Below are positions 40,260 to 44,331 of a stretch of DNA of 64,000 nt, piece after piece. Source of the DNA: Bacillota bacterium (GTDB lineage: Bacteria; Bacillota; Clostridia; Peptostreptococcales; Acidaminobacteraceae); NCBI GenBank assembly GCA_030529225.1, contig JAUMXH010000002.1:1-64000 (forward strand). The letters run 5' to 3'. The notes under the pieces were generated by a model. It ran no database searches and was not told where the DNA came from. It worked only from the letters and a program-made list of their open reading frames with translations. Both the position numbers and the translations under genes were made by a program. Each line of letters begins with the position of its first letter. Position 1 is the stretch's first letter.

Positions 40260-40796
40260 ATGAAAAAATTTACTTCAAAGGATATTGTTTTCCTGGCGAT
40301 CTTATCTGTGGTGCTCTTGCTCCTGTCTTCGCTGATCATGCCGGTGATTATGTTCACCCAACTCACGGCGCTCAGGCAGCTCTTTGCGGCACCGATCTTT
40401 GCGATCTTCAGCGTGATTGCAATCAAAAAGGTTCCGAAAATCGGCGCACTCTCAATCGTGGGTTTGCTGACGGGCGGTGTCCTGGCCTTCATGTCACCGA
40501 TTATGTTCATCAACAACTTTCTGGGCGCAGTCCTGGTTGAGCTGATCGTCCTTCTCCTCTTCCGCAACTACGACAAGAATGCGGCTGTCCTCTTTGCAGC
40601 CGCGGCCTTTGTTCCGGTGACCCTTCCCTTGTCCCTCGTTTCGCAAGTGGTCTTAAAGGGTCAAAAATTGAGCAGTCTCCTGGGTTCCAGCCTGCAGACG
40701 GTCGGCCTTCCGATCGCGGTCATCGCCCTGTCAATCATCGGGGCCTTCGTGGGACTCAAGATTGCCAACGAATTGAAGAAGACGGGTAAACTCTAA
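40260..40796 (+). CDS. ECF transporter S component, MptD-like
   Basis: This 178-residue membrane protein has about five or six helices. It opens MKKFTSKDIVFLAILSVVLLL, the usual start of MptD-family ECF substrate-binding components. The S component confers substrate specificity; MptD-like members adjacent to exporter-type ABC pairs have been linked to heme import in group A Streptococcus (SiaF). GAGGAGTT lies upstream. Its stop codon overlaps the next start (TAATG). Confidence 0.8.
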   Translation: MKKFTSKDIVFLAILSVVLLLLSSLIMPVIMFTQLTALRQLFAAPIFAIFSVIAIKKVPKIGALSIVGLLTGGVLAFMSPIMFINNFLGAVLVELIVLLLFRNYDKNAAVLFAAAAFVPVTLPLSLVSQVVLKGQKLSSLLGSSLQTVGLPIAVIALSIIGAFVGLKIANELKKTGKL

Positions 40797-41491
40797 TGCT
40801 TAGCCTATATATCAAAGAGAAGGATCGGATTTATCCGCTGCTCAGCCTCATCATAAGCTCCATGTTTTTCATCATGGGGCTGTTTTTCGTTAAGGAGCCT
40901 TGGTTTTTGCTCTACTTGGCGGGCATCGTCCTGGTGCTTTTGGGCTTCGGATTTCACAAGTCGCTCGCGCGGGTAAGCCTCCTGATTATACCGATTTCCA
41001 TTGTCGTCTACCTGCTGGCGCGCTTGGGAACCACCCACATCAATGCCCTCCAGAATGCTTACAGAACCTTGCTTCTGGGGCTCAGCGCGGTAATCAGTTT
41101 GTCGATTGAACCGGTGGATTTGGTCAGAAATCTGAATCAGCTGAAAGTGCCGAGACTGCTCAGCCTGGCGCTACTCATTACCCTGCGCTTTATGGGCGTC
41201 ATTTCGGAGGAGATGACTCGCATTCGCATCGCGATGAAGACCAGGGGTGTAAATAACAATATCCTGAATCCCAAGGTCGCCTACCGCGCCTTTTGTATCC
41301 CGCTGATCATCAGGGTTATCAGCATTTCGGACATTTTGGCCATCTCGCTGGATACCAGGGGCTTCAAGTCCGACCAGCAACACAGCAACTACAAGGATGT
41401 AAGACTCGAAGCGAGGAGTATCTTATTTACCGTCGTATCCCTCGCCCTGATCGGCGCAGCCATCTACCTGCATTTTTTTAAGAGAGTATAA
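40796..41491 (+). CDS. ECF transporter T component (transmembrane coupling protein)
   Basis: This 231-residue protein has about five membrane helices and two characteristic arginine-containing coupling motifs near the C-terminus (IAMKTRGVN and ISLDTRGFKS; the family motif is A-R-G or T-R-G), which dock to the ATPase. It starts one base inside the S-component stop and is followed after three bases by the ATPase gene, so the ECF module is translationally coupled throughout. Confidence 0.88.
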   Translation: MLSLYIKEKDRIYPLLSLIISSMFFIMGLFFVKEPWFLLYLAGIVLVLLGFGFHKSLARVSLLIIPISIVVYLLARLGTTHINALQNAYRTLLLGLSAVISLSIEPVDLVRNLNQLKVPRLLSLALLITLRFMGVISEEMTRIRIAMKTRGVNNNILNPKVAYRAFCIPLIIRVISISDILAISLDTRGFKSDQQHSNYKDVRLEARSILFTVVSLALIGAAIYLHFFKRV

Positions 41492-41494
41492 ATT

Positions 41495-42856
41495 ATGAAT
41501 TTAAGAGTAGAAAACCTTTCGGCAAGATACAGCCCGGAATCCAAAACCATATTTGAAGGCATCAGCTTTGAGGTAAAGGCGGGTGAATTCATCCTGCTCA
41601 CCGGCCTCTCAGGAAGCGGAAAAAGCACCCTGCTCAGCAGCCTGAACGGCATCCTGCACGGAGAAGAACTCGTCAGCGGAAGCATCTTTTTGGATGATAC
41701 CGAGCTCTCGGGCATGGGCGCCAATGAACGCTCGAACTACATCGCGTCGGTGCTCCAAAACGCGGATGAGCAAATCATCTTTGAAAAAGTCGAGGACGAG
41801 CTCGCCTTTCCGCTTGAGAACATGGCACTTTCGCCGGAGGAGATGAGAGAGCGGATTCAAAAGTATGCGGGGATGATGAGCCTGCGCCTGAATGACAGGA
41901 CGTCCAAACTTTCCGGCGGACAGAAGCAGAGCCTGATCACCGCGGCGAGTTTCGGCATGGAGCGAAAGATCCTGCTCTTTGACGAACCGCTCGCAAACCT
42001 CGATAACAGGGCGGCCGTCAGGCTCCTCGATACCCTAAAGGAATTCTGTGAGAAGCACGGATACATTGTCCTGTTCAGCGAGCACCGCATCGACCTGGTC
42101 TTAGGCTACACCGACAGGGTCTTTTATATGAATGCCGGCAAGCTCAAATCGATCAGCGACAAGACCCGCTTCAAGCTCTATCTGGACAACAAGGTCAGCA
42201 AAATCAAGGAAACCCTGGTCTCTACCTGTAAAGAACCTGTCTTTGAAATCGATCGGCTCCAATATAAAGTGGATAGTAAAGAGATTTTGAAGGGGATCAA
42301 CTACAAGTTTTTACGAGGCGGAAAATATGTAATCTCCGGCGAGAACGGCACCGGAAAGACCACGTTTATAAAACTCCTGACCGGCATCAACAAGCCGAGC
42401 GCGGGAAGCATCAGGAGTCCTTTTTCCAAGAAGGAGCGCTTCCAAAAGATTGGATTGGTCATGCAGAACCCGAACTACCAGCTCTTTATGCCGAGCGTCG
42501 AAGCGGAGCTGAAGCTCCAATCCAAGGATGATAACTTTTTGCAGTTTTTGATTGAAAATTTCCGAATCGGAGAGCTCCTGCAGAAACACCCGCATTCCTT
42601 AAGTGAAGGACAAAAGAGGAGGGTCGGCGTGGCCGCGATTCTATCGATGCAGCCCGAGGTCTTAATCTTGGACGAACCTTCTGTGGGTCAGGACTACAAG
42701 AACATGTCCGCGATGCTGACTGCCATTCTGGAACTCTGCAAGATCAACGATACGACCGTAATCAGCATCTCTCACGACTTGAGATGTTTTCAAAACCTGG
42801 GCGATATCTTCCTAAAGCTCGAGGACGGCGTCCTCAAAGAAAATGAGGTGTTTTAA
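41495..42856 (+). CDS. ECF transporter ATPase, two fused ABC domains
   Basis: 453 residues carrying two complete ABC ATPase domains in tandem. Domain 1 has Walker A GLSGSGKST (about 37-45), signature LSGGQKQS and Walker B LLFDEPLANLD. Domain 2 has Walker A GENGTGKTT (about 282-290), signature LSEGQKRR and Walker B LILDEPSVGQD. It would energise the T and S components encoded just upstream. The fused form replaces separate EcfA1 and EcfA2. A hairpin terminator follows at once. Confidence 0.9.
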   Translation: MNLRVENLSARYSPESKTIFEGISFEVKAGEFILLTGLSGSGKSTLLSSLNGILHGEELVSGSIFLDDTELSGMGANERSNYIASVLQNADEQIIFEKVEDELAFPLENMALSPEEMRERIQKYAGMMSLRLNDRTSKLSGGQKQSLITAASFGMERKILLFDEPLANLDNRAAVRLLDTLKEFCEKHGYIVLFSEHRIDLVLGYTDRVFYMNAGKLKSISDKTRFKLYLDNKVSKIKETLVSTCKEPVFEIDRLQYKVDSKEILKGINYKFLRGGKYVISGENGTGKTTFIKLLTGINKPSAGSIRSPFSKKERFQKIGLVMQNPNYQLFMPSVEAELKLQSKDDNFLQFLIENFRIGELLQKHPHSLSEGQKRRVGVAAILSMQPEVLILDEPSVGQDYKNMSAMLTAILELCKINDTTVISISHDLRCFQNLGDIFLKLEDGVLKENEVF

Positions 42857-43040: not shown

Positions 43041-43157
43041 ATGGGAAAAACAAAAGAAAATAGCGTAGAACTAAGCGGAAGAAAAGAAAGCGTCGGAGAC
43101 TTGCCAAAAGGTAAGGCAGGGAGGCAGATCTGTGAAAAGCACCGGAATCGATTTTGA
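43041..43157 (+). CDS. Possible 38-residue leader peptide before the sigma gene
   Basis: An ATG with a good AAAGGA site seven bases upstream opens a 38-codon frame of basic, hydrophilic composition (starting MGKTKENSVEL). Its stop lies 23 bases inside the sigma-factor gene in another frame. The overlap would allow translational coupling. It has no recognised family and may be a chance frame. Confidence 0.3.
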   Translation: MGKTKENSVELSGRKESVGDLPKGKAGRQICEKHRNRF

Positions 43158-44331
43158 GAAGACAAATACTTTGCTAAAAGAGATTTACACAGAATACAAG
43201 CAAGCAATATATTTTTTGGCATTTCAATATTTACATGATGAGTCCCTTGCCGAGGACATTGTGCAGGAGACCATCATAAAGATGAGAGAAAAAATCATAA
43301 AACAGGAAGTCCGTTCGATTGAAAAATTGGGAGCCTTACTTGCTACCATCGTGAAAGGCCTGTGTATCGACCTGATCAGACGAAGAGAAAGAATACTTTT
43401 CAGAGAAATTCTCGATTATGAAATTGAAAGCGAGTCCGGATTTTTCAATCAGTTTGCTCTAAAGGATGCCATCAACCGCCTTCCTGAAAAAGATAGGGAT
43501 ATTTTTTATAAAAGAGTTTACAAGGATCTGTCCTATCGTGAAATTGCAAGGGATTGCAATATGAGCGAGAGCGCTGTGCTCATCGTTCTGGCTGCCCACA
43601 TTCACTGGAGAGTCTATCCGATGGAATGGACGGAGCAAAAGATGGAGCATGAAGGCGATCTGAAACGCATCGAGGAAGAACTGACTAAAAAAGGGTTTCC
43701 TTCCGATCTGATCCAAACCATTCAATCAGAAGACTTGCTTGCCTGCAAGGGAGCTACAAGGGTTGCCTATGAAACAAGTAACGAGGAGGATACTCACTTC
43801 AGAGAGAGAGATAAATTGAAGATGCACAGTATCATCGTGGAGCTGCCGAAAGAGAAGAAAGATATTTTTAAGTACAGGGTATTTCACTTTATCACATGGT
43901 CCAAGCCGGAGCCTTACCTCGGATCGGACTCCCTGATTGCGGTTCCGAGTCAAGGAAAGGACGTAAGAATCAGTGATCTTGGCGGCAGGATTTCCTGTAA
44001 GGATGGAGATACATGGTATTGCGCTCCATTCTACAGCATAGAACAGCAAATGGATGAAATGTTGACCCGAAATGATGAGAGAAAAATGCATGAAATCTAC
44101 ATCACAGAGTTTTCTTTGCGAAACCATGAGAGGGCGATCGCTTACCTCTCTTACAACGCGGAGGACGGAGACACCGAAACGTCTTATTTTGAGTCGCAAG
44201 GAGGATATTTATACCAAAAAAGCAGTATTCTTATTCCGTTTGCGACCGGCAAAGATACCTACCTGAAGGGAGAATTGTACAAAAACAATTATAATTACCT
44301 GTACTCCACTGTCGAAATAGACAAACCGTAA
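43132..44331 (+). CDS. ECF sigma factor fused to extracytoplasmic partner domain
   Basis: 399 residues from a GTG with GGGAGG seven bases upstream. Residues 1-149 are an ECF sigma factor: region 2 (YFLAFQYLHDESLAEDIVQETIIKM) and region 4 up to LSYREIARDCNMSESAV. The recognition helix then breaks off after Val149 and continues as a short hydrophobic stub LIVLAAHIHWRVYPMEW (150-166) and a 230-residue domain rich in charged and aromatic residues. That tail looks like the outer part of a membrane protein whose transmembrane helix has been cut short. I read this as an in-frame deletion that joined a sigma gene to its downstream partner. Region 4 is truncated, so promoter -35 recognition may be lost. 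Base composition is more AT-rich than the neighbours. Confidence 0.75.
   Translation: MKSTGIDFEKTNTLLKEIYTEYKQAIYFLAFQYLHDESLAEDIVQETIIKMREKIIKQEVRSIEKLGALLATIVKGLCIDLIRRRERILFREILDYEIESESGFFNQFALKDAINRLPEKDRDIFYKRVYKDLSYREIARDCNMSESAVLIVLAAHIHWRVYPMEWTEQKMEHEGDLKRIEEELTKKGFPSDLIQTIQSEDLLACKGATRVAYETSNEEDTHFRERDKLKMHSIIVELPKEKKDIFKYRVFHFITWSKPEPYLGSDSLIAVPSQGKDVRISDLGGRISCKDGDTWYCAPFYSIEQQMDEMLTRNDERKMHEIYITEFSLRNHERAIAYLSYNAEDGDTETSYFESQGGYLYQKSSILIPFATGKDTYLKGELYKNNYNYLYSTVEIDKP

Follow-up and report, generated by a model that had tools for sequence, protein, structure and literature searches.

ECF sigma factors fused to parts of membrane anti-sigma factors have been described in several groups, among them IutY (ECF243), ECF48/52/53 (SCO4117) and ECF36 (PMC8999054). 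Such fusions carry the anti-sigma part together with transmembrane helices, and IutY is activated by proteolysis (PMC8999054). Another kind of extension is found in ECF41 and ECF42, where SnoaL-like or TPR domains follow the sigma4 domain at the C-terminus (PMC8999054).

The initial annotation of the DNA analysed here, a stretch of 64,000 nucleotides that we call the window, described an ECF sigma factor joined in frame to the outer domain of a membrane partner. That description holds: positions 43132-44331 of the plus strand form a single open frame that starts with GTG, has no internal stop and encodes 399 aa, and in which Pfam matches to a sigma factor give way, at residue 150, to homology with the partner. 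The frame, its parts and the site in front of it are as follows:

43120..43124, + strand: GGAGG, resembling a ribosome-binding site by reading of the sequence, 7 nt before the GTG
43132..44331, + strand: the fused ORF, a truncated ECF sigma factor plus the partner outer domain (399 aa, no internal stop)
43183..43392, + strand: sigma region 2, complete, residues 18-87 (Pfam PF04542, E=3.2e-11, profile positions 1-70 of 71)
43456..43578, + strand: sigma region 4, residues 109-149, truncated behind the conserved Val with which the recognition helix begins (Pfam PF08281; alignment with complete sigma factors)
43579..43614, + strand: hydrophobic stub, residues 150-161, the distal half of partner helix 7 (60-partner alignment; hydropathy)
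43615..43629, + strand: YPMEW motif, residues 162-166, where members of the partner family conserve YPMxW immediately beyond helix 7
43630..44328, + strand: partner outer domain, residues 167-399, short helices and then a beta-sandwich (AlphaFold2 and homology)

Promoter and terminator scans of the flanks gave chance-level results only. The two halves of the fusion have a GC3 of 0.42 and 0.53; across 150-codon stretches of the other window genes the median is 0.71.

The first half is an ECF (group IV) sigma factor by its region 2, which serves core binding and -10 recognition: Sigma70_r2 (PF04542) matches at residues 18-87 (E=3.2e-11; Pfam), and TIGR02937 scores the fused ORF at 63 bits, above its cut-off. 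Region 4 is incomplete, the Sigma70_r4_2 profile (PF08281) matching at residues 109-149 (9.6e-13; Pfam) over its positions 3-43 of 54 and the helix-turn-helix match ending inside the recognition helix (…MSESAV149), which is where the initial annotation had seen the helix break. Alignments with complete sigma factors and with partners derive the residues beyond Val149 from partner helix 7. In the published structure of sigma-E region 4 on the -35 element, the residues that follow the conserved recognition-helix Val reportedly make most of the -35 contacts. Since helix 7 residues occupy those positions in the fusion, -35 reading should be lost, and the product should be unable to recognize -35 elements normally, although its complete region 2 could still contact core polymerase.

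From residue 150 onward the ORF reads LIVLAAHIHWRVYPMEW and is followed by an approximately 235-residue domain, close to the short hydrophobic stub and 230-residue domain noticed at first reading, the stub being the distal half of partner helix 7. Pfam and NCBIfam scans of this domain gave no significant match. A tblastn search over plasmid records returned a single match, to residues 162-390 (E=6e-9), in a hypothetical protein of Vescimonas fastidiosa whose gene directly follows a sigma gene. Extending the search to the window's order and class, to family f10 and to named genomes, whose contigs were scanned with the narrower partner alignment A3 because the broader A2 was too diverse, yielded a family of coherent proteins of about 450-570 aa, and no Pfam or NCBIfam model matched the members scanned. 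In blastp the best sequence match of the fused ORF is to locus L112 (2e-21, 26% identity), with an alignment that begins at the junction itself. Judged by these matches, the homology of the second half to the partner is far beyond chance.

In an AlphaFold2 model of one partner member, an N-terminal tail modelled at low confidence is followed by seven membrane helices (39-55, 63-82, 87-109, 121-152, 160-178, 183-209 and 223-244) and a beta-sandwich outer domain; because the number of helices is odd, the tail and the outer domain would lie on opposite sides of the membrane. The homology of the window ORF to this family sets in midway through helix 7 and takes in the whole outer domain, with the YPMxW, GFP, ED and CxGAxRV motifs. 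The ORF therefore carries the outer beta-sandwich with YPMxW, GFP and CxGAxRV that marks a partner, but only the distal half of helix 7 of the seven helices, and the N-terminal cytosolic tail, which presumably binds the sigma factor, is absent. The Kyte-Doolittle hydropathy of the stub over 19 residues is 0.96, whereas no intact helix 7 scores below 1.91. The stub thus looks too polar to cross a membrane and is not expected to span one, and the outer domain, if the fusion is made, would stay in the cytosol. AlphaFold2 predicts the window outer domain with a mean pLDDT of 86.8, in a model that leans on the relatives' alignment. Over 28 near-invariant positions of the outer domain the window keeps 57%, below the group-A relatives; this figure alone does not demonstrate decay, because intact-looking group-B partners keep 29-89% of the same positions. 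A sequence search of solved structures returned nothing significant, and kinship from a PDB fold search was rejected, the search having yielded only weak beta-sandwich matches (pore-forming toxins and carbohydrate-binding modules) at a query TM of at most about 0.35.

In relatives the two halves are separate genes. An ECF sigma gene lies immediately 5' of a separate partner gene in 45 of the 64 named Clostridia loci, usually with an overlap of 17 nt, and the sigma or partner gene is split or abutting in three more; separate pairs are also found in V. fastidiosa and in other genomes of the window's order. Separate sigma and partner genes are what the initial annotation had proposed to look for in close relatives, and the junction of the fusion aligns with them inside helix 7. 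The pair is widespread in Clostridia (L082-L145). In V. fastidiosa the sigma gene is split into two frames by a frameshift in the deposited record (L024:2738-3276), the partner being intact. The V. fastidiosa pair also has an S component upstream, and just upstream of the fusion the window holds an energy-coupling-factor-type transporter set (40260-42856; membrane component, CbiQ-like protein and double ABC ATPase), which is likely a coincidence.

The architecture of the window itself occurs in none of the 64 named Clostridia loci and in no ORF of any fetched locus, so that the full-length fusion in relatives that had been named as a counter-argument to a deletion did not appear among the loci fetched. 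No partner was found in genomes of the same family, and a peptide-pattern search of genome and viral contigs with the whole fusion found no relative. The fused ORF is about 26% identical to all relatives, none of those found being close enough for dN/dS. A phage origin was considered and dropped, the matches being weak and confined to unverified faecal records: one of these, MT836488, is labelled a 'bacteriophage' scaffold from human faeces and encodes a 513-aa partner ORF (L158:1964-3505) with no sigma ORF of at least 130 aa just upstream, and is probably a bacterial contig.

About a dozen partner genes stand without a sigma gene (among them L083, L086, L091, L092, L123, L126, L127, L129, L139, L140 and L144), and in many of these the tail is degraded: in cross-validation, all 47 sigma-linked partners reach a tail score of at least 43.8, and 9 of 13 sigma-less ones stay below 34. 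Because the tail is so often degraded where the sigma gene is absent, this pattern points to the N-terminal tail as the sigma-binding segment, and we infer that the partner is an anti-sigma factor. By eye, L140 and L136 adjoin arsenate-reductase-like and permease-like genes, and the L086 partner adjoins a transposase-like ORF.

Could the join have been made by the assembler? The genome is a draft of 37 contigs, with an estimated completeness of 95.4%, in which neither a second copy of the fusion nor a separate partner gene was found, and the join is present once. A chimeric join or a collapsed stretch is nevertheless very unlikely: the junction (nt 43578/43579) contains no Ns and lies, in frame, in the interior of a contig of 150,652 bases, the assembly gap near 43.57 kb that would have undone the initial annotation being absent; the sigma factor and partner are ordered and oriented as in real operons; and two other genomes carry comparable deletions, described below. 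Above the family cut-off, the same draft encodes one intact ECF sigma factor, on contig C33 beside a gene for a one-helix protein, and two larger sigma factors that look, by eye, like the SigD and SigB/F types.

What, then, does the fusion represent? We think it probable that the fused ORF is a non-signalling remnant of an in-frame deletion across the border between a sigma gene and its partner. The ancestral state would have been an overlapping pair, an ECF sigma gene followed by a gene for a seven-helix membrane partner with a sensor-like outer domain; in the intact pair, the cytosolic N-terminal tail of the partner would hold the sigma factor at the membrane and the outer domain would act as the signal sensor. 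Set against a linked pair, the fusion is missing the last approximately 25 residues of the sigma factor and the first approximately 232 of the partner; with the overlap counted in, the loss comes to an estimated 0.75 kb. On the sigma side, a deletion of roughly that size, crossing the border in frame, would have removed the C-terminus and the -35 recognition helix from its midpoint on; on the partner side, it would have taken the tail, six complete helices (1-6) and helix 7 up to its middle. The remaining product would keep the core-binding region 2 but would have no normal -35 reading, no spanning helix and no tail, and with these three gone the fusion is most likely a remnant that does not signal. 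We count in favour of this reading the separate overlapping genes of relatives, the position of the junction inside helix 7, the independent border deletions described below, the pattern of tail scores, the low GC3, the retention of 57% of near-invariant positions and the hydropathy of the stub, lower than in any intact helix 7; against it stand the frame that stays open over 399 codons with outer-domain motifs kept, and the position of the sigma half in trees, outside the partner-linked sigmas, such that the two halves may come from different operons.

Can both halves be traced to one operon? In our trees the window sigma falls outside the partner-linked clade, among other-type ECFs and on a long branch (100/100 support in one tree), and its region 2 is closer to those other ECFs (28% mean identity) than to the linked sigmas (16%), the comparison ECFs in both cases having been chosen by similarity to the window. 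This would fit an ECF sigma factor of another group joined to the tail end of a partner by a larger rearrangement, an origin that we regard as unlikely and that concerns only where the halves came from, being compatible with a remnant as well as with a regulator. The way the comparison ECFs were chosen and the long branch make the placement unsure, a clade that unites the window sigma with the linked sigmas is not rejected in an AU test (p=0.447), and region 4 is closer to the linked sigmas (36% mean identity) than to the other ECFs of that same set (28%). The contrast between the regions had raised the idea of a mosaic sigma factor, which was dropped because of the bias in the comparison set and the small length of region 4. 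Of the proposal that an in-frame deletion crossed a sigma/anti-sigma border, the deletion itself gains from the separate overlapping genes of relatives and from two further border deletions, whereas the cognate pairing of the two halves is left in doubt by the placement of the sigma outside the linked clade and by the AU result, and the anti-sigma role of the partner is a presumed one.

Deletions across this border have occurred elsewhere in the family. In genome G104 the third sigma/partner pair has lost 816 bp in frame, from sigma region 2 into the partner (with G226 and G293 as reference), and through this and a second, smaller deletion has collapsed to a 115-aa ORF (L045:890-1237(-)). In L143 (Lachnospiraceae bacterium RGIG423) the sigma factor breaks off at FYRKYYYRQ, and the sequence goes on into the outer domain in another frame. 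Both events are independent of the one in the window. The third pair of G226 and G293 (L042, L043) shows almost no DNA difference between the two genomes through the sigma gene and the start of the partner, then diverges within the partner, a pattern that suggests recombination.

Fusions of another architecture are found in four genomes of genus g62, where one ORF just downstream of an intact pair combines a full-length sigma factor with the tail and helices and has no outer domain; the helix-turn-helix of its sigma factor is altered. Genome G226 holds a further fusion ORF. The g62 fusion paralogs are:

L030:241-1419, - strand: g62 fusion ORF
L031:243-1532, - strand: g62 fusion ORF
L032:2977-4155, + strand: g62 fusion ORF
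L033:244-1422, - strand: g62 fusion ORF
L081:216-2246, - strand: g62 fusion ORF

Across the four genomes dN/dS is about 0.13-0.28, values by which the g62 fusions are under purifying selection. Selection can thus preserve sigma–partner fusions in this family, though in an architecture other than the window's.

The g62 fusions lend some weight to the idea that the window fusion, too, has been retained, as a new regulator: a soluble protein whose region 2 binds core RNA polymerase or an anti-sigma partner without reading the -35 element, acting as a decoy or co-regulator, with the displaced outer domain stabilizing it or binding a ligand. The open frame, the ribosome-binding site, the complete region 2 and the confidently predicted fold of the outer domain are consistent with this. 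However, the g62 fusions differ in keeping the full-length sigma factor, tail and helices and lacking the outer domain, the layout of the window is found in no relative, codon adaptation is poor, and the outer domain, extracytoplasmic in intact partners to judge by the odd number of helices, would be stranded in the cytosol. On balance we consider a retained regulator unlikely, and it is improbable that the deletion itself created one, pairing region 2 with a formerly extracytoplasmic domain as a decoy for core polymerase or an anti-sigma factor; if it did, a broken sensing switch would have turned into a new trans-acting regulator. The initial annotation had offered a degraded locus or a new regulator, and of the two the former is the more apt, the ORF being most likely a remnant and nothing speaking positively for a working new regulator.

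Under the preferred reading, that of a deletion remnant, the age of the event may be framed in two ways: the deletion is recent and struck an already divergent pair, or its product has evolved under relaxed constraint. Because 399 codons stay open at about 26% identity and the outer-domain motifs are kept, most of the divergence happened under constraint, which may predate or postdate the fusion.

The fusion exposes a widespread, unnamed system of ECF sigma factor and seven-helix partner in Clostridia that has no Pfam or NCBIfam model and that seems prone to sigma loss, border deletions and fusion. The loss of the partner tail along with the sigma gene makes a sigma-binding segment a testable prediction, and the selected g62 fusions with their altered helix-turn-helix make it a testable question whether regulators arise from broken sigma factors.

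How does this locus compare with known systems? Its closest counterpart is the sigma/seven-helix pair of Clostridia (V. fastidiosa KI236_RS07680-07690), with which it shares a homologous outer domain and distal helix 7 and the position of the sigma factor 5' of the partner on the same strand; that pair, however, consists of two genes with a complete region 4, a tail and seven helices, whereas the window has one ORF without them. The g62 fusion paralogs (L030-L033, L081) likewise combine, within one ORF, a sigma factor with a member of the same partner family, and are the reverse of the window in what they keep and lose: full-length sigma, tail and helices are retained and the outer domain is gone. 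Like IutY, ECF48/52/53 and ECF36, the window ORF unites a sigma factor and parts of a membrane partner in one polypeptide, which in some of those proteins include an outer domain; unlike them, it has no spanning helix and no tail, its region 4 is truncated, and the joined transmembrane and anti-sigma parts are missing. With ECF41 and ECF42 it shares an extra domain after region 4, but in the window region 4 itself is truncated, and the domain joined to it is an unrelated one. The fusion is best classed as a probable remnant, left by deletion, of a so far unnamed pair of sigma factor and partner: a variant, and not a kind of its own.
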